A stretch of DNA of 64,000 nt. It comes from a virus. The notes beneath the pieces are model-generated. The model made no database searches, was not told the origin of the DNA, and worked only from the letters and a program-made list of their open reading frames with translations. The DNA lies in IMG/VR virus record IMGVR_UViG_3300042544_001590, positions 62,001-126,000 of that record; one strand, written 5' to 3'. The position numbers were made by a program, and so were the translations under genes. Positions 6,113 through 43,208 of the stretch are shown here, in pieces; the stretch's first letter is position 1, and every line of letters begins with the position of its first letter.

Positions 6113-6943
6113 CTACAAATCGAGTCCAAAATAGTCACTGATAGAATCTTGTATATATTCATCTTCTTCGGGGGTTAATTTATTATAAATATATTTCAAT
6201 CCTTCCACATCCCCATACTCATCAAGATCAGTTTCCAAAATGGACACAATCTTAGGGTTTCCAGAAAATCCTATGTTTTTATCAATTCTTCGGGAATCAC
6301 CCTTTTCATAATGTTTCATCTTTAATTTGGTGATGGAGTCTATTATGTTTCTGAAAGCATCATATGTAGTCCCCCGTATATTAAACATCTTTTTAAATGA
6401 TTCAACTTGATCTGTGGGTATTTTTTCTTCCAAAGGTCCAAATAGTAATATGTGTCCGTTGTTTGATATAATCTGCTTTAATCTCTGTTTTTGAATCGAA
6501 TTTATTTGAAATTTATCTTTTAGCTTATTCCAAAAATTCTTACTATTGATTGTGAGATATTCTTTAAATTTAGTCTTTTCTTTTGTGGATAAATCATTTA
6601 TTAATTCCTCAATTTGAGACTGATTTAGTGTTGATAGGGAATCGGTAATATAATCCTCGTCCGTGAATTTTTGCGTATATCCTCTGGAGCGAATTACCAC
6701 AATTAGCAGACTCTCATAATACCCCAACCAATCTGGCACGTTTTGCAATAGATAATCCAAATCAGAAGAAACATATACCCCCTGAAATGATTTATAATAA
6801 TTAAATTCTCCCCCCCAATTGTTTTTTTTATTAGGTATTAATCCGTTTTTGAGTATGGATCGTTTATATTCTCCCCTTGTTATATGATATAAGATTTCTT
6901 CGGGTTTTGTATTTTCTTCGAAAAATTCTAAAAAGCTTTGCAT
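6113..6943 (-). CDS. ADP-ribosyltransferase-like protein, 276 aa
   Basis: After a short leader (MQSFLEFFEENTKP) comes 'LYHITRGEYKRSILKNGLIP' (residues 19-38), then 'GVYVSSDLDYLL' (about 55-66) and 'LLIVVIR'. A strand with His, a helix ending in 'NGLIP', then a 'VY' strand is the arrangement of ADP-ribosyltransferase and RNA 2'-phosphotransferase folds. The expected catalytic Glu cannot be placed by eye. T4 packages the ART Alt in its capsid; the 'SFLEFFEE' leader here is like a capsid-targeting peptide. The assignment is a structural guess. Late-type motif GGTTAAATAATGAA precedes the ATG. Confidence 0.45.
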   Translation of the reverse strand: MQSFLEFFEENTKPEEILYHITRGEYKRSILKNGLIPNKKNNWGGEFNYYKSFQGVYVSSDLDYLLQNVPDWLGYYESLLIVVIRSRGYTQKFTDEDYITDSLSTLNQSQIEELINDLSTKEKTKFKEYLTINSKNFWNKLKDKFQINSIQKQRLKQIISNNGHILLFGPLEEKIPTDQVESFKKMFNIRGTTYDAFRNIIDSITKLKMKHYEKGDSRRIDKNIGFSGNPKIVSILETDLDEYGDVEGLKYIYNKLTPEEDEYIQDSISDYFGLDL

Positions 6944-25723: not shown

Positions 25724-26866
25724 TTACATGACCAACATCAAAGGAGGGTCCATCGTGCCGTATCCACCTTCAACAAGGAAATTTTCAAGTTCTTTCTTCT
25801 CTTCCAAACCTTCTGAAAGAACGTTGGAACCATCAATGACCCCCCCTCCGGGTAGGGGGGTGTTGGATATCTTAGTGAGTATCCGACCCCACATAATCTT
25901 TGACATGGCCGTAGCGTATTCCAAAATCCATTTTTCCTTCACTAAATCCCTCAATGGTCTTTCCACATAACATGTGAGCAACCCATAGAATTGGGTATTC
26001 TTCGGCTGGGGAATCAAACGGAGATATTGTGTTCTTGCATCAAAATAGATGTCCCGACGAGTGGCAAACATTTTTTCGCGGGTATCAATCCAATCCTTGA
26101 CGGTGTGCCAAGACAGGATATCAAATCCATAGTTACCCAGCGAATAAGCATGATAACTTTGTTGTGCCATGGTTTGTTCAACGGAGAACAGTGTGTTTAC
26201 GCCCGTAGTAGAACCTTCCTCAAAGGCGATAACATCAACTACTTTACGGTAATCCATGACATCATAATCAAACATATTATTAAATGTGTTCACATCATCC
26301 TGTTGTTCACACTGTATTGTGAACGGTTTTTGGTAAGACTGTTGGAACAACACACCCAAACCAGCATCAAATTCCACGATAAGATCATACGTGGTTTGAT
26401 CAATGATCTGCATGGAAGTAATACCATCGGAAGGAACAGCACCACTCAATGCTGACGAAGCGGTGAAATATGCACTTGGAATCGTTGAAAGGGAAACATA
26501 CAAAGGTGTGGGAAGCGTAACTTCGTAATCCGGTTGTGGTCCTGTTCTTTTATCATTAAGCTTTTCAGATGGGGTGTAACCGGAATTTGCTACCGTAAAA
26601 AGGTGATCTAACCGCAAGCCTTTGTTACCCTCATATAATCGGCTGTCAAACAGAAGATATTCCTTAGTGTAACCACTATATACTGTATAGAAGTCAACCG
26701 CCATTGATATAGCTTCATACAACTGATCATAATGCAATTCCACATTAATCATAGGATGTCCCAAAGTTCTAAGGATACGTTCTCCAAGTCTTTGGTAGCA
26801 TTCTATTTTAGAATTCAGATTCGTTGACATGAATGCTGAAATCGGTTCCACTTGACATAAACTCAT
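25724..26866 (-). CDS. Neck / head-completion protein (gp13-like), with replaced 5' end
   Basis: 380 aa. Start region 'SNLNSKIECYQRLGERILRTLGHP' style and 'SGYTKEYLLFDSRLYEG' match neck/structural proteins of T4-like phages next to the portal. Codons 1-45 have a second, displaced copy at 28569-28706 encoding the same residues. This means the 5' end now attached to the gene came in with the neighbouring homing endonuclease. The promoter motif GATTAAATACTACT precedes the ATG. Assignment to gp13 rather than another neck protein is tentative. Confidence 0.6.
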   Translation of the reverse strand: MSLCQVEPISAFMSTNLNSKIECYQRLGERILRTLGHPMINVELHYDQLYEAISMAVDFYTVYSGYTKEYLLFDSRLYEGNKGLRLDHLFTVANSGYTPSEKLNDKRTGPQPDYEVTLPTPLYVSLSTIPSAYFTASSALSGAVPSDGITSMQIIDQTTYDLIVEFDAGLGVLFQQSYQKPFTIQCEQQDDVNTFNNMFDYDVMDYRKVVDVIAFEEGSTTGVNTLFSVEQTMAQQSYHAYSLGNYGFDILSWHTVKDWIDTREKMFATRRDIYFDARTQYLRLIPQPKNTQFYGLLTCYVERPLRDLVKEKWILEYATAMSKIMWGRILTKISNTPLPGGGVIDGSNVLSEGLEEKKELENFLVEGGYGTMDPPLMLVM

Positions 26867-26880
26867 AGTAGTATTTAATC
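26867..26880 (-). promoter_or_regulatory. Late-type start motif of the neck gene
   Basis: Minus strand GATTAAATACTACT directly before ATG at 26866; part of the imported segment. Confidence 0.6.
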
Positions 26881-26886
26881 AACCAT

Positions 26887-28572
26887 ATGAAATCAACGAA
26901 AAAATTAACATTGGAGGTCTTTATCCAAAGATCAAACGAAGCGCATAATAATTTTTATGACTATTCTAAATCAGAATATAAAAACGCAAATACTAAATTA
27001 ACCATAACTTGCCCAACCCATGGAGAATTCATACAGAAACCAGCGGATCACATGCGAGGATGTGGGTGTGTGTTATGTGGGAATTATAAAAACACGAGAT
27101 TGAAACCTTTTGAGCAATTCCTAGAAGAAGCTAATAAAAAACATGATAATTTTTATGATTATAGTAAAAGCATTTATATAAATTCCACCACTAAGATTAA
27201 CATAATTTGTCCTATTCATGGGGATTTCACACAAATTCCAAATTCTCATATTTCGGGTCAGGGATGTCCTAAATGTGGTCATTATAAAAATACAAATAAA
27301 AAGAACACCGAAGACTTTATTAAACGCTCTACGATTATACACAACAATAAATACGATTATTCAAAAGTTGAATATGATGGTAATAAGAAAAAGGTTATTA
27401 TAATATGCCCAACCCATGGAGAATTCATCCAAATTCCAAATGCACATTTACGGGGGGCTGGATGTTGGAACTGTAGTGTTGATTATAGAATGAACGAAAA
27501 AAGATCAAACAGTAAAGATTTTATAGAAAAAGCCAACATAGCCCATCAAAACAAATATGATTATTCATTAGTTAATTATTATAATAATTATCAAAAAATT
27601 CCCATAAAATGTCCTAAGCATGGGATATTCAATCAAAATCCGGGAAACCATTTACAAGGTGCTGGGTGTCCAAAATGCTCTTCAATTGAAAGTAAGTCTG
27701 AAACAAAAATAAAATCTATATTAGAGGAAACGGGAATCGATTTTATACAACAAGATAGAACTTTAATCAACCCATTTGAGATAGATTTCGTAATTCCTGA
27801 TTATAAAATTGGAATTGAGTTTAACGGTATTTACTATCATTCGGAAGATAATGGAGGTAAAAATAAAAAATACCATCTGAATAAAACAGATCGGTGTGAA
27901 AAAGAGGGATATCAATTAATCCATATTTTCGAAAATGAATACATACAAAAATATAATTTGTTGAGATTTAAAATAAAATCACTATTAAATAAAAATAAAT
28001 ATCGCATATTTGCTAGGAAGTGTATTGTCCGAGAAATAACACCTCAAGAGAAATGCAGATTTAATAAAAAATATCACATACAAGGGGATTCCCAATCATG
28101 TGTTAATTTGGGGTTGTTTTATAAAGAGAGGTTGGTTCAAGTTATGACTTTTTCTAAAAGAAGAAAAGCATTAGGTTCTAAACACGTTAAAGGTGAATAT
28201 GAACTTTCCAGAATGTCTTCTATGAAAGGATTTACCATTGTGGGTGGCGCATCCAAGCTATTAAAACATTTTGAGAAACATTATAATCCTAAGAAGTTAA
28301 TCTCTTATGCTGATAGAAGGTGGAGTAAAGGAGATGTGTATTATAAAATGGGGTTTTCATTTATTAGAAACACCCCACCAAATTATTGGTATTTTTATAA
28401 AAAACGCGCTGATAAGCCATTACACCACCGATACAAATTCGCTAAACATACTCTTGAAAAACAATTGGAAATATTTGACCCAAATTTAACAGAGTGGGAA
28501 AACATGAAAAACAATCATTATGATCGTATCTGGGACTCTGGTAATATGCTATTTGAAAAGGTGTATGATTAA
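26887..28572 (+). CDS. Homing endonuclease with four zinc-finger-like repeats and EDxHD/Vsr-type nuclease
   Basis: 561 aa. Four repeats of about 60 residues (roughly 9-65, 74-130, 138-192, 203-257) each contain 'YDYS', 'CPxHGxF', 'PxxH' and 'GCxxC'. A PDDEXK-like nuclease core follows: 'FEIDFVIPDYKIGIEFNGIYYHSE' (acidic and His residues of the EDxHD type), then a C-terminal domain ('GGASKLLKHFEKHYNPKKLI', 'SYADRRWSKGDVYYKMGF'). AT-rich, no Shine-Dalgarno, inserted in the neck gene. A homologue lies at 41757. Confidence 0.8.
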   Translation: MKSTKKLTLEVFIQRSNEAHNNFYDYSKSEYKNANTKLTITCPTHGEFIQKPADHMRGCGCVLCGNYKNTRLKPFEQFLEEANKKHDNFYDYSKSIYINSTTKINIICPIHGDFTQIPNSHISGQGCPKCGHYKNTNKKNTEDFIKRSTIIHNNKYDYSKVEYDGNKKKVIIICPTHGEFIQIPNAHLRGAGCWNCSVDYRMNEKRSNSKDFIEKANIAHQNKYDYSLVNYYNNYQKIPIKCPKHGIFNQNPGNHLQGAGCPKCSSIESKSETKIKSILEETGIDFIQQDRTLINPFEIDFVIPDYKIGIEFNGIYYHSEDNGGKNKKYHLNKTDRCEKEGYQLIHIFENEYIQKYNLLRFKIKSLLNKNKYRIFARKCIVREITPQEKCRFNKKYHIQGDSQSCVNLGLFYKERLVQVMTFSKRRKALGSKHVKGEYELSRMSSMKGFTIVGGASKLLKHFEKHYNPKKLISYADRRWSKGDVYYKMGFSFIRNTPPNYWYFYKKRADKPLHHRYKFAKHTLEKQLEIFDPNLTEWENMKNNHYDRIWDSGNMLFEKVYD

Positions 28573-28706
28573 TGTAACTCCACATTAATCATAGGATGTC
28601 CCAAGGTTCTTAAAATCCGCTCCCCCAAACGCTGGTAGCACTCAATCTTGGAATTGAGATTGGTGGACATGAAAGCGGAAATTGGTTCAACTTGGCAGAG
28701 ACTCAT
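28569..28706 (-). pseudogene. Displaced original 5' end of the neck gene (45 codons)
   Basis: From the ATG at 28706 to a TAA created at the insertion junction (28569-28571), it encodes exactly the first 45 residues of the neck protein (MSLCQVEPIS ... NVELH). By hand count about 28 of 135 bases differ from the active copy, all synonymous. It keeps its own late motif (GTTAAATAATTCT, 28707-28719), so a 45-aa peptide may still be made. Confidence 0.9.
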
Positions 28707-28737
28707 AGAATTATTTAACAAGATGCTAAATAATAAT
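28707..28737. promoter_or_regulatory. Divergent late motifs between neck remnant and structural gene
   Basis: Minus strand GTTAAATAATTCT serves the remnant at 28706. Plus strand CTAAATAATAAT (28726-28737) serves the gene at 28738. Confidence 0.6.
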
Positions 28738-29052
28738 ATGGAATCCAATAACGGCTCAACTTTTTATAATCCAAACACTTCTCGAAATTTCGTAACAACC
28801 ATTAATACTGGATTGTCCGGATTTCAGTCTTTTACTTGCTCTGAAGTATTGGTAATTAATAGAACTGGACAGGATGTTTATCTATATGATAGTGGTGACA
28901 CTGGGGATACAAACAGACTTCTAATTTTAGATGATGAGTCAATCGTAATCAGGGGAGTTAGCAATAGTTCCTCTTTAAGTGCTAAAACCGCTACTGGCAG
29001 TGGTGATTTATATTATCGCGCATCCAAATTCAGCAATTACAATCAAGGATAA
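28738..29052 (+). CDS. Small beta-rich structural protein, 104 aa
   Basis: 'SGFQSFTCSEVLVINRTGQDVYLY' then 'LLILDDESIVIRGVSNSS' is the pattern of small virion decoration or fibre-adaptor domains. The ATG at 28738 is chosen because the late motif directly precedes it; an upstream ATG in frame runs into the neck remnant. Stop overlaps the next start (TAATG). Confidence 0.6.
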   Translation: MESNNGSTFYNPNTSRNFVTTINTGLSGFQSFTCSEVLVINRTGQDVYLYDSGDTGDTNRLLILDDESIVIRGVSNSSSLSAKTATGSGDLYYRASKFSNYNQG

Positions 29053-29888
29053 TGGCAGGGATACCGTCAATAGCAAATATTAATAGATTTATTGAATCTG
29101 GGCTTGGACGTTCTTTAGACCCAGACGCTAAAGGATACATTAATTCAGTTGTCGCTGCTGGTGGGACGGTTAGTGGGACGCAGAGGGCAGCAATCAACAC
29201 ATTCTACAAGACAGGAAAAGCCGATGGCTGGTATTCCTCTCTGAAACGCGTGTATCTGCCAATCTGGGGAGTTGCTGCACCCAACGCCATCGACATGATT
29301 GCGAGGGGAAGCGGCACGTTCACGGGCACTGTGACGCACGGAGCGGGATATGTTCAAAGCAACGGGACGACCGGGTATTTCCGCACAGGAACCGCGTTTT
29401 CAACAGAAGGGCTAAGCGCGGCTGATGGATACATCTTCGGGCTTCACTACACCGCGAACACCACGAATCCAGCGGTGTGCATCGGGTCGGGAAACACGAA
29501 CACCTGCTACTACTTCATGACGACCACAACCGCCACGGCGCGTTGGTGCAACTCTGCATCCGGCTCAAGCATCGCCACCACGCGGACAGGAATCTTTTCA
29601 TTCTCCCGCAAGTCAGGCGTGCGGACATTTTGGAGACGCGCAACAAGCGGCAGGACGGTGCTTGTAACATCTACCGACGCAGACGCCGGAACCATTTCCG
29701 CAAGCCCTGTTTTAGCAATGGCGAACAATGGAACCGACGTCGCCGCGACCTTTAACCCGCAGTTTTACGACGACGGGCAAAAGGGTGCTTATGGCTTTGG
29801 CCTTGGCCTAACAAACGCTCAGGACTTATCTTTCACGGCATCACTTAAAACACTTTGGGAAACCTGCACCGGACTTACACTACCATGA
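29052..29888 (+). CDS. Fibre-like / virion surface protein, 278 aa
   Basis: Low-charge, Thr/Gly/Ser-rich beta protein ('GTFTGTVTHGAGYVQSNGTTGYF', 'SGRTVLVTSTDADAGTI'). The second half looks like a jelly-roll/LamG-like carbohydrate-binding domain. The N-terminal helix ('ANINRFIESGLGRSLDPDAK') may attach to the virion. From about 29150 to 30150 the DNA is clearly GC-richer than its surroundings, suggesting transfer of a receptor-binding module. Confidence 0.5.
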   Translation: MAGIPSIANINRFIESGLGRSLDPDAKGYINSVVAAGGTVSGTQRAAINTFYKTGKADGWYSSLKRVYLPIWGVAAPNAIDMIARGSGTFTGTVTHGAGYVQSNGTTGYFRTGTAFSTEGLSAADGYIFGLHYTANTTNPAVCIGSGNTNTCYYFMTTTTATARWCNSASGSSIATTRTGIFSFSRKSGVRTFWRRATSGRTVLVTSTDADAGTISASPVLAMANNGTDVAATFNPQFYDDGQKGAYGFGLGLTNAQDLSFTASLKTLWETCTGLTLP

Positions 29889-30196
29889 TCGGATTCGTAG
29901 TCACTCCAGAACAAGCACAGACGGTCAACGCCGCTATCGCAGAAGCGCAGACAATCCGTGGTATGCCCGTGTTTTGGTTGGCTGGGAGCAACCCGATCTA
30001 CACTGGAGAACACGCGGGAGAATGCTTTATTCCATGCGACGACGAAACGCTCTCCACACCCCTTATCGGACACCCTCCGCAGACCCCGCAGGACTTCCCT
30101 GAGTTCGCCACGATCATTGAATCAATGGGTGGGCTAGATGCTCGCATTGATATTCCCAATGAAGAATTGGTTTCCCCGATTTCAATTGATGAGTAA
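29885..30196 (+). CDS. Small fibre-associated protein, 103 aa
   Basis: ATGA overlap with the previous stop fixes the start at 29885. 'IGFVVTPEQAQTVNAAIAEA' and 'IYTGEHAGECFIPCDDETL' suggest a small alpha-beta chaperone or tip protein. Such a gene directly after a fibre gene is often an assembly chaperone (inference). The GC-rich composition continues for most of it. Confidence 0.5.
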   Translation: MIGFVVTPEQAQTVNAAIAEAQTIRGMPVFWLAGSNPIYTGEHAGECFIPCDDETLSTPLIGHPPQTPQDFPEFATIIESMGGLDARIDIPNEELVSPISIDE

Positions 30197-30212
30197 TATT
30201 TTGTAATTCATA

Positions 30213-30226
30213 GATTAAATAATATT
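30213..30226 (+). promoter_or_regulatory. Late-type start motif of the PAS gene
   Basis: GATTAAATAATATT directly before ATG at 30227. Confidence 0.6.
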
Positions 30227-30901
30227 ATGGATTTTTACGATTTTGTTCAACAACACGCCAATTTTATAAAAATTATTCTAGGGGCGATTGGTGCCATTAT
30301 ATTGACTTGGAAACAACTCAGGACTTTTATTGTCAAAAAATATAAGGAACGTCAGGAATATATTAAATCTCGGAATTCCATACCAGAATCTTTAAAAAAT
30401 ATTCAAGGAACTGTGTCAAATATTGATGATCGTTTAAAAAATGTGGAATATGAAATATCCCCGAATGGTGGGGGTTCCATGCGGGATTCTGTGAAAATAA
30501 TCAAAGCTGAAATAGAGGCTATGTTTTGGCTCAATCCCAAACCATCGTTTAGAGTTACCTCCAAAGGTCTTAATATTATGGTGAATGAAGCATATTGTAA
30601 TCTGTGTGCAACATCATCAGAAGAATTGCTTAGATTAAATTGGAAAAATTTCGTGGAAGACGAACATCAACTTGATGATTACATGCGTAGATGGGAGGAT
30701 TCAACCGATGTATTTTCACAGTTTTCTGGTAAATTAAAATTTAAAAACTCCAAAGGCGAATATATGGGCGAGTGGATTGTGAAAGTCCGTCCTTTGGGGG
30801 CAATCGATTCGGGAAACGATTTCCTGTGGCATGGGACAATTTACCCCTTTGATCAGAAATCAAAGGAATATGCCAAGACTTATGGTATTCCTTTGAGTTA
30901 A
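30227..30901 (+). CDS. Membrane-anchored PAS-domain protein, 224 aa
   Basis: Residues 13-27 ('FIKIILGAIGAIILT') form one membrane helix after a short N-terminus, followed by a basic and coiled-coil linker (about 30-100). The C-terminal part has a PAS-fold sequence: 'PSFRVTSKGLNIMVNEAYCN', 'EELLRLNWKNFV', 'GKLKFKNSKGEYMGEWIVKV'. The single N-terminal helix and overall length resemble T4 holin T. It could sense a signal for lysis timing or act on host signalling; both are inference. Confidence 0.6.
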   Translation: MDFYDFVQQHANFIKIILGAIGAIILTWKQLRTFIVKKYKERQEYIKSRNSIPESLKNIQGTVSNIDDRLKNVEYEISPNGGGSMRDSVKIIKAEIEAMFWLNPKPSFRVTSKGLNIMVNEAYCNLCATSSEELLRLNWKNFVEDEHQLDDYMRRWEDSTDVFSQFSGKLKFKNSKGEYMGEWIVKVRPLGAIDSGNDFLWHGTIYPFDQKSKEYAKTYGIPLS

Positions 30902-32706
30902 ACCTCCGCTGGTGGTGCTTCAGGAACATCCGCTGGTGGTTCTTCCCCTCCTAGATCAGCTTCTTCCCCATCACCTATTGCTGCTGGTCCGCCGCCGAAG
31001 TCTGGAACGCCGCCACCACCGCCTCCACCACCCATATCAGGCATACCACCTTCGCCACCACCTTCAGCTTGTTGAGCTAAAAGATTGCGCCACTCGGGAC
31101 CCGATGACCTGATTTGCTCGATTTCAAACATGTGTTCCGCTTCCACCTTCTTAAAGTGTAGGTTGGCAAGGATATCGGAATCTTTCCAATCCAGATATTT
31201 CTTCATAGCATAGATTGTGGATACCATTTCATTACCCGTGATATTATTGAAAGTCTCGATCTTGAGATTGAGCTTCTGGCTCTCCCGCATATCATAGAAA
31301 TTGGTGGGAACATTGAATTCCACGCGGATATTGTCATCGAACAAATCCCAATCATCGAACATGTCCTTGAACTTGAGGTGTGTGATAAACGCTCTCTTGA
31401 TACCTTGGGCAAAGCGTTGTTGTTGACGAATGATCATCTTGGCAAACTTCAGTTCTTCCCGAAGCATCTCCGTTCCATCATTATAACCCGTTTCATTATT
31501 CAAACGAGAAGTTGGAGTCTTGAGAGAACGATACAATTTCTTGATGAACCAATCCAGAGCATCCAAATTACCATCCGACATTTGACCACCAAATGTCTCA
31601 ACAGTAGTTGCTTCTTGTCCCTGTCTCTTGGCAAACCAGAACGAATCCAAGGTGGATTGCGGGGCGTATTTCTTGACGATATCCCCTTGGTCGATGTCAA
31701 AGGTCTTGGTTGACCAGTATTGGCTCTGTAGCTTGCGTAGGTAGGCTTCCGCTTGAGGAACGGGCAATCTCCCCACATCCACGTTAAAGAGGAAGCGGAG
31801 GGGCGCGTGAACCATCCTGTGGATCACCACGGAATCCTCAATCATGGAAAGCTGTCTATAAGCTCTGCGGCAATTCTCAATGAAAGGAATAATAAAATCT
31901 TTGGTTTCATTGTATTGCCCACTGTTCACATAAAGGACTTGGTTCTGTTCAAAGGGAATGTATTCGTAGCGTTCCACTTTTTTGTTATCAACGCTGGAAA
32001 AGATCGGCTTCTTGTAAATGAACGCTTTCACCAACATCGTCTGGATGTTGTCATATACGGGATCAAATTGTTCGGCAGGAAGATTCTTGATAGCCACAAC
32101 CCCTTGTTTAATATAATCATCTTTTAGAATCAATTCAAAGAACAGTTCCCCTTCAATGAGAAATTGTCTAAAATAATTCCACCCATTGTCTTCCAGTTCC
32201 ATCATGGCAACGAAACGGGAGAATTCCTTCTCAATCTCTTCTTTCTTTTCTGATTCCAGATCGGTGTTGCGGATTGTGAGGGTTACAATCTCCCCATTCT
32301 CATCCACATTGATCGTCTCATCACAAATCTCATCCATGGCATCTGCCACTTCGGAGTAAGCGGCAATCATGCGGTAATCCCGCAAACGTCCGGGTTTCTC
32401 CTCCGAAGCTTGGGAATACATCAAATCCGTAAAGGACTTGTCTTGATAGATGGCGGAAAATGCCGTGTTGTTCCAGTCGTTATTAAGAGCTACGGAATTA
32501 CGAGCAATCGCTTCCGGTCTGCGTAAACCAATCTTCTGGAAATATTTATATTTTGTATTCTTCGCTTCGTCAGGAGTCTTCTCAATGAAATTCCCACGAT
32601 TCTTCAGATAGGACTGCATGTTCCTATCAAAAGTGGAACCTTTACCGTCATTACTAACGTAGGATTTATTTGAAGATTGTGTAGAAGAACTGTCGGAACC
32701 CGCCAT
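30898..32706 (-). CDS. Portal protein, T4 gp20-like
   Basis: 602 aa. 'RDYRMIAAYSEVADAMDEICDE' (about 108-129), 'APLRFLFNVDVGRLPVPQAEAYL', 'SFWFAKRQGQEATTVETFGG' and 'LDWFIKKLYRSLKTPTSRL' follow the T4 portal family. Forms the dodecameric DNA gate of the head. The C-terminal about 70 residues are an unusual Gly- and Pro-rich tail. Late motif CCTAAATAATAAGT directly before ATG. Confidence 0.92.
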   Translation of the reverse strand: MAGSDSSSTQSSNKSYVSNDGKGSTFDRNMQSYLKNRGNFIEKTPDEAKNTKYKYFQKIGLRRPEAIARNSVALNNDWNNTAFSAIYQDKSFTDLMYSQASEEKPGRLRDYRMIAAYSEVADAMDEICDETINVDENGEIVTLTIRNTDLESEKKEEIEKEFSRFVAMMELEDNGWNYFRQFLIEGELFFELILKDDYIKQGVVAIKNLPAEQFDPVYDNIQTMLVKAFIYKKPIFSSVDNKKVERYEYIPFEQNQVLYVNSGQYNETKDFIIPFIENCRRAYRQLSMIEDSVVIHRMVHAPLRFLFNVDVGRLPVPQAEAYLRKLQSQYWSTKTFDIDQGDIVKKYAPQSTLDSFWFAKRQGQEATTVETFGGQMSDGNLDALDWFIKKLYRSLKTPTSRLNNETGYNDGTEMLREELKFAKMIIRQQQRFAQGIKRAFITHLKFKDMFDDWDLFDDNIRVEFNVPTNFYDMRESQKLNLKIETFNNITGNEMVSTIYAMKKYLDWKDSDILANLHFKKVEAEHMFEIEQIRSSGPEWRNLLAQQAEGGGEGGMPDMGGGGGGGGVPDFGGGPAAIGDGEEADLGGEEPPADVPEAPPAEV

Positions 32707-32719
32707 ACTTATTATTTAG
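32707..32719 (-). promoter_or_regulatory. Late-type start motif of the portal gene
   Basis: Minus strand CTAAATAATAAGT directly before ATG at 32706. Confidence 0.65.
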
Positions 32720-32746
32720 GGTGAATCTTCAATTATTCAATGAAAT

Positions 32747-33055
32747 CTATTTGGGTATTTCAAAAGTGGAACCATCTGGTAATTGAACTGCTGTTGTGGA
32801 CGATGGTAACATACCAGTCTCAATCGCATCATATAAAGCATCTGGAAAATATTGTTGTTGATACTCGCTCATCGGAAATTTAAAAGTTACTGGTTCTCCA
32901 CCACGAGAATATCCCATCAACATTTCCAATTCACCATCCGGCGTTCTGGTTGAAAGATTTCCAAATTCATCTTGCTCCAATTTAACAATACCTGATTGTT
33001 CGGAATACATCTCGGTTATGAGATTTGAAATTGCAAGTTGATCTTTCGTGGTCAT
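32747..33055 (-). CDS. Hypothetical protein, 102 aa
   Basis: 'GIVKLEQDEFGNLSTRTPDG' and 'TTAVQLPDGSTFEIPK' suggest small beta hairpins; the middle is Gly/Pro/Tyr-rich. Motif TTAAATATAAAT precedes the ATG, so it belongs to the late class. No family recognised. Confidence 0.55.
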   Translation of the reverse strand: MTTKDQLAISNLITEMYSEQSGIVKLEQDEFGNLSTRTPDGELEMLMGYSRGGEPVTFKFPMSEYQQQYFPDALYDAIETGMLPSSTTAVQLPDGSTFEIPK

Positions 33056-33070
33056 ATTTATATTTAACTA

Positions 33071-33271
33071 TTAATCGCCTTTTTCATACTTTTCAATCAT
33101 TTCAGCCACAAATTTTGGGGTTATTGGGTGTTCTTTTGTCCACAAAGATTTCCAAAATTTATTATTGTTATAAATAGATAGTCCCCATTCCCCATTTTCA
33201 TCGTCTTGTTTATTCAAAACCCACCCATACTCAACATCATCCACTGTGATTTTTCTGTGTTTCTTTTTCAT
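33071..33271 (-). CDS. Small hypothetical protein, 66 aa
   Basis: 'HRKITVDDVEYGWVLNKQDD' then 'NKFWKSLWTKEHPITPKFVAEMI'. A small alpha-beta protein, probably co-transcribed with the YopX-like gene immediately upstream (1 nt apart). Unknown function. Confidence 0.55.
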   Translation of the reverse strand: MKKKHRKITVDDVEYGWVLNKQDDENGEWGLSIYNNNKFWKSLWTKEHPITPKFVAEMIEKYEKGD

Positions 33272-33272
33272 T

Positions 33273-33617
33273 TTAAATCAATTCAGGATTTTCAAAAATA
33301 TTCCCAATAATCTCTCTATCACATACATCAAGCAACCAACAACCCAATCCACCATTAGATTCAAGAACAAACCTCGATTCGGTATTTTCCCACACAACTT
33401 CAAATAGATCATCGATATCCGTAGAACCAAATGATATAATATCACCCTCATAAATCTCAACTTCATTTTTATCGAGAAGACCTGTCCACTGCTGGATGAC
33501 AAATTCTTCGCTTGGATGTGGTGTGTAAATCTGTCCTGATACGAAATCTCCGTCCATGAAAGCTTTGAACTCCTTATCAACTTTATCCCAAACACGAAAT
33601 TTAAATTTTCGATTCAT
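33273..33617 (-). CDS. YopX-family protein, 114 aa
   Basis: 'KFKFRVWDKVDKEFKAF', 'QQWTGLLDKNEVEIYEGDI' and 'REIIGNIFENPELI' are the three YopX signatures (PF09643). Common in phages, function unknown. It is the only minus-strand gene here with a complete AAAAACTAG early element (14-nt spacing), so it is an early gene within a late region. A second YopX gene lies at 57407. Confidence 0.85.
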   Translation of the reverse strand: MNRKFKFRVWDKVDKEFKAFMDGDFVSGQIYTPHPSEEFVIQQWTGLLDKNEVEIYEGDIISFGSTDIDDLFEVVWENTESRFVLESNGGLGCWLLDVCDREIIGNIFENPELI

Positions 33618-33641
33618 GAGATGAGTGTATTCTAGTTTTTA
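33618..33641 (-). promoter_or_regulatory. Early start element 25 on the minus strand (14-nt spacing)
   Basis: Minus strand TAAAAACTAG AATACACTCATCTC before ATG at 33617. Confidence 0.7.
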
Positions 33642-33647
33642 AGAAAA

Positions 33648-34727
33648 TCAAGCGGAACTCACCCACCCAGCGTCATTTGCCGTCACAAAAACATGATTAC
33701 CCGACAAATCAGCGAAATAATTGGAACTTAGTGCCACTGTGACAATATTATCATTCACCGTAGTAATCACGTTCTCTGGCAATTGATATGCAGAAATCGT
33801 GGGGAACTTGGCAGTGTCAATCTCAGTATATACCAATTCGGGAATGTCATAAGCTCCCGACAGATACCATGTATTATTATAATTAAATCGCTTTCCATAG
33901 AATTGGAAATTCCTATCGTTCAGTTCCGTGACAACCAGAGAATCCCCTTGGTGAATGCCATTGATGAAATAATTGGTAAATTCGGGATATGCGCTGATTG
34001 ATACGCTGTCTGTCACCACACCTTCGGCACTGATCGCATCAAAGAGATTGTAATCACAAAAGCGATTACTGACAGGGAGAGCATGGAAGTCAGCGTTCAC
34101 CACATAGATCGGTGCTTGGGTCTGGTTGTAATCCTTGAACAGCCATCCCTTGACCGTGAAAGAGGTGGAAGCGGAAATTCTCCATTTCACATCAGGAGAT
34201 AAGTCCTTGGGATTTTCATAGGAAATATCTCCTGACCACTGGATTTCCGAACGAATCTCATCTATGAAAGGCATGTTGAATTTCTCAGGAACTTTCCAAG
34301 ACACCATGATATATGGGTTACAATTCACCACGAAATTCTGAATGATTTGATCCAAATCCTCCTTGAAATAACAGATGATATTCACTTCCAAAGTGAGATT
34401 CACCGGAATTGGTTGGGGGATTTTAGCCATCCGGTTGGTGGAATCCAACTGTTTTCTATAAATGAATTGATCTTTGTTGTGAATGCGGGATGGATCACGC
34501 GCCAACGAAGTTTGCTCAATTGTCACCACAGGCAGGGTGAGCGTCTTGGCTCTGTCGCTCAGGTCATGTATAACACGCTGTTTCGGTCCATTGACATAGC
34601 GAACCTCAATCTTTTCCTTTGCTTGCCTTGTGCGAGCGTCATAGCGATATACAAAAGCATCGTCAAACGCTGCAACGAACAGGTTGAGGAGTTGGGAATT
34701 TTCAAAGAAATAGCTGTAATCGTTCAC
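33648..34727 (-). CDS. Tail protein, T4 gp15-like (proximal tail sheath stabiliser), GTG start
   Basis: 359 aa. 'KEKIEVRYVNGPKQRVIHDL' and 'LTLPVVTIEQTSLARDPSRI', then 'WRISASTSFTVKGWLF' in the second third, match the conserved parts of gp15-type tail terminator proteins. The C-terminal about 130 residues are extra and beta-rich. Motif TTGATTAAATAAGAAGTA before the GTG at 34727. The assignment relies on motif memory, so moderate confidence. Confidence 0.6.
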   Translation of the reverse strand: MNDYSYFFENSQLLNLFVAAFDDAFVYRYDARTRQAKEKIEVRYVNGPKQRVIHDLSDRAKTLTLPVVTIEQTSLARDPSRIHNKDQFIYRKQLDSTNRMAKIPQPIPVNLTLEVNIICYFKEDLDQIIQNFVVNCNPYIMVSWKVPEKFNMPFIDEIRSEIQWSGDISYENPKDLSPDVKWRISASTSFTVKGWLFKDYNQTQAPIYVVNADFHALPVSNRFCDYNLFDAISAEGVVTDSVSISAYPEFTNYFINGIHQGDSLVVTELNDRNFQFYGKRFNYNNTWYLSGAYDIPELVYTEIDTAKFPTISAYQLPENVITTVNDNIVTVALSSNYFADLSGNHVFVTANDAGWVSSA

Positions 34728-41756: not shown

Positions 41757-43208
41757 ATGGCTAGAATTTACAAAACAGATGAAGTGATCAAACTTTTCAA
41801 GGATAAACATGGGGATCGGTATGATTATTCTAAATTTGTTTATCCCGGTAAAAAGAATGATAAAGGGATTGTGATCTGTAGAGAGCATGGTGAATTTCTG
41901 ACTTCCAAACAATATCATTTAAAAGGGTGTGGTTGCCCCGAATGTGTTGGTGTTCCAAGAGGAGGTTTTAAACGGAGAACCCAAGAACAATTCATGGAAG
42001 AATTGAAAGAAAAATATCTAAAATTTTATGATTATGATTTTTCAAAATTCATATATAAGAACAATACTACCAAAGGAACTATCATATGCCCCAAACACGG
42101 GGAATTTCAAATCACACCCAAACACCTTTTGATGAGACAGTATGGTTGTTCGGAGTGTTCAGGGAAGAAAAGATTAACAATTGAAAAGATCAGGGAATTG
42201 ACATCCTATCAAATTCCCGATCAGGAATACACCAATAATAAAACACATATTAAAGCTGTTTGTGAATTGCACGGGGAATGGTTGGTGCGACCAGATAACC
42301 TACTTCATGCTAAAACGAGGTGTCCTGTATGTGCGGAGAATCTATCCAAGATTGAAGAAGAACTTAGGGAATTTGTTAAAACAGAGTTGGACGTTACCAT
42401 TATCACAAATGATAAACAAATTCTAGATAAAAAAGAATTGGATATCCTATCCCACAAACATAACATTGCAATTGAAATGAATGGTTTGTTTTGTCATTCG
42501 GAGGAAGGAGGTAAGGACAAACATTACCACCTACACAAGACGAATAAGTGCTTAGAGTCTGGTATTCGTTTATTTCATATATTTGAGGATGAATGGCGGA
42601 ATAAACAGGAGATTTGGAAATCCATTATTAGATATAATTTTAAAATGGTTCCCAATAAAATCCATGCTAGAAAATGTGAAATCAGATTGGTTGATAATTT
42701 CACCACCAAACAATTCTTAACAGATAATCATCTACAAGGATATTCTAATTGTTCTGTTTCTGTGGGACTTTATCATAATGATCAATTGGTATCCATATTA
42801 ACTTTTGGTAAGAGTAGATTCGATAAAAACGTGGAATGGGAGCTTATCCGTTTCGCCAATGTATTGAATACATCAGTAGTCGGTGGATTCCAGAAATTGT
42901 TCAAACACTTCATCAAGACTTACAATCCAAATTCCATTGTATCATATGCAGATAAACGATACTCAATTGGTAATGTATATCGTAGTGTTGGGATGGAAGA
43001 GATTGAAAACGATGCTGTTAATTATTATTATTTCAATAAGCGAGAAGGTGTTAGATATTCTCGCCATCAGTTCCAGAAACATAAGCTGAAAGATAAGTTA
43101 CCAATCTTTGATGAGTCCTTGAGTGAGGGTGATAATATGAAATTAAATGATTTTTACAGAATCTATGATTGTGGTAATTATAAATTTGTGTGGAGGAAAT
43201 CCTTGTAA
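41757..43208 (+). CDS. Homing endonuclease, zinc-finger-like repeats and EDxHD/Vsr-type nuclease
   Basis: 483 aa, homologous to the protein at 26887. Three N-terminal repeats with 'YDYSKF', 'CxxHGEF', 'H' and 'GCxxC'. Nuclease core 'KKELDILSHKHNIAIEMNGLFCHSEE' and the C-terminal domain ('GGFQKLFKHFIKTYNPNSIV', 'SYADKRYSIGNVYRSVG'). Inserted between a hypothetical gene and the end of the capsid gene, in tandem with a GIY-YIG gene. Confidence 0.8.
   Translation: MARIYKTDEVIKLFKDKHGDRYDYSKFVYPGKKNDKGIVICREHGEFLTSKQYHLKGCGCPECVGVPRGGFKRRTQEQFMEELKEKYLKFYDYDFSKFIYKNNTTKGTIICPKHGEFQITPKHLLMRQYGCSECSGKKRLTIEKIRELTSYQIPDQEYTNNKTHIKAVCELHGEWLVRPDNLLHAKTRCPVCAENLSKIEEELREFVKTELDVTIITNDKQILDKKELDILSHKHNIAIEMNGLFCHSEEGGKDKHYHLHKTNKCLESGIRLFHIFEDEWRNKQEIWKSIIRYNFKMVPNKIHARKCEIRLVDNFTTKQFLTDNHLQGYSNCSVSVGLYHNDQLVSILTFGKSRFDKNVEWELIRFANVLNTSVVGGFQKLFKHFIKTYNPNSIVSYADKRYSIGNVYRSVGMEEIENDAVNYYYFNKREGVRYSRHQFQKHKLKDKLPIFDESLSEGDNMKLNDFYRIYDCGNYKFVWRKSL

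Follow-up and report, generated by a model that had tools for sequence, protein, structure and literature searches.

Free-standing endonucleases of phages usually lie between genes, because insertion into an essential gene kills the phage unless an intron or intein is spliced. The stretch of DNA analysed here (hereafter the window; 64,000 nucleotides, bases 62001–126000 of a virus record of 207,489 bases) raises the question of how a homing endonuclease could enter the coding sequence of an essential tail-connector gene in a large phage and leave that gene whole. An endonuclease gene lies there between two copies of the start of the neck gene, one attached to the gene and one displaced. The locus has the following parts (L-numbers such as L002 denote compared loci or contigs):

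25724–26866, minus strand: neck gene (head-tail connector, Ad2-like), 380 codons, apparently a functional chimera
26732–26764, minus strand: codons 35–45 of the attached copy, native-like, silently different from the displaced copy at two positions (codons 43 and 44)
26765–26866, minus strand: codons 1–34 of the rebuilt 5′ end, imported to judge from third-position identity, tree and GC
26867–26886, no strand: 20-bp intergenic strip between the rebuilt neck gene and the endonuclease, containing TTAAATA
26887–28572, plus strand: Hef-like homing endonuclease, 561 aa, intact ORF (phrog_559, DUF723, Mom)
28572–28706, minus strand: displaced neck codons 1–45, original to judge from identity to L002/L010 and tree, ended by an immediate TAA
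28707–28737, no strand: original intergenic/promoter region of the neck gene, same as the relatives' upstream DNA (CATATTATTATTTAG...TTAAATAATTCT)
28738–29052, plus strand: divergent neighbour gene with an ESNNGS N-terminus, in the same position as in relatives

Two copies of the neck gene start

The neck gene matched the head-tail adaptor Ad2 (phrog_211, E=6e-23) and shared 94% protein identity over its full length with its closest relatives, the loci L002–L011 (n=10). Its start and the endonuclease ORF are divergent and 20 bp apart; on the far side, the TAA stop of the endonuclease ORF overlaps the displaced copy by one base. An earlier note on this DNA had reported that the first 45 codons occur twice, and our recount bears this out: the attached (26732–26866) and the displaced copy (28572–28706), both on the minus strand, agree in all 45 residues, and every one of the 28 differences among their 135 bases is silent. 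For the displaced fragment the note had given 28569–28706, of which the end is correct and the start is off by 3 nt.

The 28 differences comprise 24 third-position and four first-position changes, the latter in Leu/Arg codons. Only 21% of random single changes would be silent, and 28 silent changes out of 28 have a probability of ~7e-20 under no selection, which argues that the two copies accumulated their differences in functional genes, prior to their meeting in a single genome; their union appears to be recent. The differences are unevenly spread, affecting 22 of the 32 degenerate codons within codons 1–34 and none of the seven within codons 35–42 (p=0.0013), and they reappear, again silently, in codons 43 and 44. 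The right-hand junction is confirmed by contig L048, which is identical to window positions 27083–33706 at 6624 of 6624 bases, and the window contig is the sole source of the left junction. Among 46 other neck-gene loci found in a search of viral contigs, with the identical contig L048 set aside, none carried a second copy of the neck N-terminus; a duplication in relatives free of the endonuclease, which the earlier note had named as evidence against its reading, was absent from them. Our phages collection contained no relatives of the neck gene.

The loci L002–L011 have neither an endonuclease at the neck gene nor the duplication, i.e., they represent empty sites in close relatives and permit the comparison that the earlier note had proposed. 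Their first 135 nt matched the displaced copy at 124–126 positions (126 for L002, 124 for L010) and the attached copy at 107–108. At third codon positions, the attached codons 1–34 agreed with L002 in 12 of 34 and with L010 in 13 of 34 cases, against 220 and 213 of 323 from codon 56 onward (Fisher, p=2.4e-4 and p=2.3e-3, respectively); the displaced codons 1–34 reached 29/34 and 27/34. In a tree of 102 columns, the displaced copy, L002 and L010 formed one clade (95/89) and the attached copy grouped with L017/L018 (85/88). When the attached copy was constrained to the clade of the close relatives, the AU test was borderline with these only 102 columns (p=0.052). The GC content of codons 1–34 of the attached copy was 36%, compared with 42% in the remainder of the gene.

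The flanking DNA agrees with this division. Upstream of the displaced copy lies the relatives' DNA, including the start of the divergent ESNNGS gene, and the 20 bp upstream of the attached copy resemble no relative's upstream DNA apart from TTAAATA. Because both the 5′ ends and the upstream DNA of the relatives match the displaced side, we take the displaced copy to be the original start of the neck gene and the attached start to be imported, as in a terminus-replacing element, where the displaced end is native and the attached end foreign. The earlier note had proposed just this: its view of the displaced copy is borne out by synteny, nucleotide identity and tree, and its view of an imported start with a promoter-like element, set apart by the endonuclease, by the upstream DNA and the third-position tests. 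No donor of the attached 5′ end was found, and an exact search with a 27-base stretch of it gave no match.

The imported tract is shorter than the duplication. Only codons 1 to about 34 appear foreign, and the endonuclease junction lies at codon 45; the gene is native from nt 166 on, and codons 35–45 exist twice in native-like form. The proposal that the insert had entered after codon 45 holds for this junction and fails for the import of all 45 codons. A conservation peak at the insertion site was considered as the cause of the identical codons 35–42 and rejected, as sliding conservation had no peak there. Nor is the gene restored by splicing in the manner of a group I intron or intein, since the rebuilt neck gene is continuous and the displaced copy ends in an immediate TAA.

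The endonuclease and its relatives

The endonuclease is a full-length match to the family phrog_559 (E=3e-165, protein residues 75–559) and combines zinc-ribbon repeats, an EDxHD/Vsr-like nuclease (aa 269–360) and a Mom/GNAT-like C-terminal domain, with matches to DUF723 and Mom. A Vsr/EDxHD core is present: E272, E298, D300, E311, H318 and H330 were invariant in 17 homologues. The nuclease domain is shared with PDB 3R3P, a "mobile intron protein" (profile E=8e-6), which we take to be the EDxHD homing endonuclease I-Bth0305I; 3R3P is intron-encoded, and its solved chain of 105 residues has neither the zinc-ribbon array nor the Mom-like domain. The gene has a GC content of 30.7% compared with 39.5% for the window. 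Relatives in named phages, e.g., Tenacibaculum phage PTm1 and Bacillus phage AR9, are annotated as Hef-like homing endonucleases (32–37% identity).

Mom of phage Mu is a DNA-modification protein. It was the best Foldseek match of the C-terminal domain (8bv8, E=2.5e-7; model pLDDT 85, pTM 0.53), and a Mom-like domain of the family was also seen at window positions 28024–28485 (endonuclease aa 380–533; PF25680, E=2e-6). On the basis of this model, the endonuclease could carry a DNA-base-modifying domain that protects its own genome. A second intact Hef-like endonuclease gene lies at 41757–43208 of the window, with 86–89% identical copies in related phages and no terminus duplication beside it. 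A third copy, outside the window at record position 201771–202643 (G000:C1), contains an in-frame TGA and is apparently decaying.

To compare this arrangement with other insertions, we searched 700 nt on either side of 109 non-redundant endonucleases of the family for matching sequence, with 262 further long ORFs of those loci as controls; a hit had to be a direct repeat adjoining the ORF at both ends. Such repeats flanked 7 of the 109 endonucleases and none of the 262 controls (p=1.6e-4). Two of the seven repeat a terminator only; for the five with coding gene-terminus repeats, p=0.002. Both values are indicative only, since the adjacency criterion was fixed after the first cases had been seen.

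Besides the window's neck gene, the five coding cases are L079, L051, L186 and L056. At L079 (same contig as L129), the 5′ end of a gp6-like baseplate gene is duplicated across the endonuclease; the displaced end begins with MANKGISY, like the MANQGISY of endonuclease-free relatives, and adjoins gp25 as it does in them, and the attached start reads MSKKISY. The cut end of this displaced copy has 38 bases identical to the attached one, with divergence beyond. At L051, 30 codons of a 5′–3′ exonuclease gene are displaced and are slightly nearer to L267 and L266 than the attached ones (62 vs 57 and 53 vs 47 of 90 nt). In both other 5′-end cases, the displaced end thus again appears to be the native one, at L051 by a slight difference. 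The remaining two are 3′-end versions, with the last 24 codons of a DUF5856 gene at L186, for which no empty-site relative was found, and the last codons of a tail sheath gene at L056. As gene-end cases we rejected L087 and Yersinia phage phiR1-37 (L192), where only a terminator hairpin is repeated, and L052, L137, L157 and L082, which show no gene end directly repeated next to the endonuclease. Scanning bacterial and archaeal genomes yielded five relatives of the endonuclease and no further case. In each of the three 5′-end cases, a stop codon directly at the junction (window 28572, L079 ~4602, L051 ~5074) ends the displaced fragment. In the window and at L079, 26–38 bases of the displaced fragment, at or next to the cut end, are identical to the attached copy. 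At L157 (2830–2917), a Hef-like gene directly follows a gene with a tail-sheath-like C-terminus, without duplication; compared with L056, this may indicate the tail sheath as a second favoured neighbourhood of Hef-like genes.

Apart from the window's own and those of L048/L049, the closest endonuclease is that of L035 (48–49%), and another close one, that of L050, shares 43–44%. Both directly follow the neck gene of other phages, which suggests that this enzyme lineage targets the neck gene. At L035, the final ~57 nt of the neck gene abruptly depart from those of the endonuclease-free L036/L037, the preceding stretch is nearly identical, and no displaced copy of the 3′ end is left at this locus; by this pattern, L035 looks like a clean version of the same terminus-replacement process.

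The family also bears on a further proposal of the earlier note, that the silent differences would make the rebuilt site uncuttable. The sequences do not support this: no more than two silent changes (codons 43–44) fall inside the 33 bp next to the insertion point, and the rebuilt gene of L079 shows no difference from the native one within 38 bp of the junction. Were the target wholly inside codons 1–45, the displaced copy would still contain it; a target that spares the element itself must therefore span codon 45/46. Of the endonuclease-free loci, L010 carries the rebuilt type of codons 43–44, GAA TTG, and L002 the displaced type. Protection of the rebuilt neck site by silent recoding is possible from these positions; it leaves L079 unexplained.

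Mechanism, rival explanations and known parallels

We consider it probable that codon 45/46 of the neck gene was the entry point of a Hef-like homing endonuclease, which brought along a promoter-like element and about 34 codons from the neck gene of a more distant phage. The comparisons with relatives place the original 5′ end beyond the endonuclease and a foreign 5′ end on the gene, the hybrid being intact and encoding the same N-terminus. During co-infection, the endonuclease would cut the recipient neck gene around codon 45, and a donor genome with the endonuclease beside its own neck gene would serve as the repair template, from which both the endonuclease and the donor 5′ end would be copied. 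The gene side would be rejoined by homology, switching at about codon 35; on the far side, the joint would be closed at the endonuclease stop codon with little homology, if any, apart from the shared TAATG. As the foreign tract ends at about codon 34 and the junction lies at codon 45, a single clean double-strand-break repair cannot explain both sets of native-like codons 35–45; we infer two separate joints, a homologous one within about codons 35–55 and the little-homology one at the stop codon. The short doubled native stretch (codons 35–45) is not fully explained by this reading. With a full-length neck gene kept, the insertion would be harmless. The 45 stranded codons, which adjoin the break directly, might serve as a second homology arm in later homing, as proposed for the yeast WHO elements, in which homing replaces the 3′ end of FBA1 and the displaced fragment is modelled as such an arm (Coughlan et al. 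2020, PMC7282813).

It is conceivable, if rather unlikely, that an established WHO-like element is at work, in which endonuclease, rebuilt terminus and displaced fragment came as one unit from a phage with this layout already in place and the flanks were then swapped for local DNA by homologous homing. The difference in codons 43–44 next to identical codons 35–42 points to a donor that was itself a hybrid by then; the same layout recurs with other endonucleases, and a displaced fragment without nonsynonymous change fits a recent arrival as well as an arm renewed at each homing. However, no second phage with this neck insertion was found apart from the identical contig L048, and no donor either. 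We regard it as improbable that the endonuclease was a passenger, brought with the gene start by ordinary illegitimate recombination between co-infecting phages at a break of other origin. Phage genomes are mosaic, and free-standing endonucleases are able to cut away from their own gene (PMC2988022), but the direct repeats at both ends were confined to endonuclease ORFs (7/109 vs 0/262), and in two further groups of phages the same neck gene has a close homologue of the enzyme as its neighbour.

A tandem duplication of the 5′ end and subsequent silent changes, e.g., to escape cutting, would explain the identical proteins without a donor. We give it very little credence, as a non-functional displaced copy should gain nonsynonymous changes and has none (p ~7e-20), and the excess of change is restricted to attached codons 1–34, with foreign DNA upstream of them as well; divergence after duplication was rejected on these grounds. 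Least credible of all is a chimera of metagenome assembly: the left junction occurs in the window contig only, yet a second contig has the right one without a mismatch (6624/6624), the hybrid gene reads in frame over its full length, and there are independent parallel cases.

The favoured reading, entry with a replacement 5′ end, has close parallels outside phages. Like the WHO elements, the neck locus has a zinc-finger endonuclease between an intact target gene with a replaced terminus and a displaced fragment of the old one, and the gene is whole without an intron or intein. The WHO elements differ by the 3′ end, the intein-derived enzyme, the eukaryotic nucleus and cleavage that has been shown, the phage case being known from sequence. 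In mobile ORFs of fungal mitochondrial DNA (Allomyces atp6; Glomus atp6, atp9, cox2 and nad3), C-terminal ends are replaced and the native ones stranded; the stranded terminus is 91–98% identical to relatives, the inserted one has diverged to 64–81%, and the protein is nearly unchanged (PMC3630166). At the neck gene, too, the stranded terminus beyond the endonuclease matches the relatives, the inserted one has diverged and the protein is unchanged; the fungal cases differ by C-terminal ends, LAGLIDADG/GIY-YIG enzymes and mitochondria, compared with a 5′ end plus promoter-like element in a dsDNA phage. The Allomyces atp6 analogy drawn in the earlier note is apt, but the closest worked-out mechanism is that of the yeast WHO elements, and both replace 3′ ends where here a 5′ end was exchanged. 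The anatomy of the phage insertions seems the same in principle as that of these elements, but it involves both 5′ and 3′ ends and a Hef/EDxHD-type enzyme.

Hef of the T4-related phage U5 is a free-standing gene with nrdB as its target (PMC2988022); the likeness to this family runs via the annotated Hef-like relatives, not U5 Hef itself, and the literature searched held no report of terminus replacement by Hef. For phage terminus-replacing endonucleases in general, we found no report in open PMC text, and priority is not certain. We would suggest only tentatively, and with some doubt, that Hef-like endonucleases across phages form a general terminus-swapping class that homes into coding sequence with a replacement 5′ or 3′ end, never leaving the gene broken, and retains the native end that it displaced for use as a second homology arm. 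The neck case and its parallels nevertheless point to a third entry route for homing endonucleases, that of bringing a replacement gene end, and connect the endonucleases of phages with a route already described in yeast and in the mitochondria of fungi. The displaced native terminus would be a footprint for recognising and dating earlier homing into coding sequence, and terminus replacement a source of mosaic gene ends in phages.

Sequence motifs around the locus deserve mention as well. On the antisense strand of the imported codons (window 26841–26886), TTGACA is followed ~16 bp further by TTTAAT, and the displaced copy has TTGGCA in place of TTGACA. The imported 5′ end may be the source of the endonuclease promoter; this pair of motifs was absent from the list of the standard scan. 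Late-promoter-like TAAATA elements lie ~5–8 bp before the starts at window positions 26866, 28706, 28738, 30227 and 32706, and a TTAAATA-type element also precedes the portal and other genes of the window. With a spacing of 5–8 bp, late transcripts would be leaderless or nearly so.
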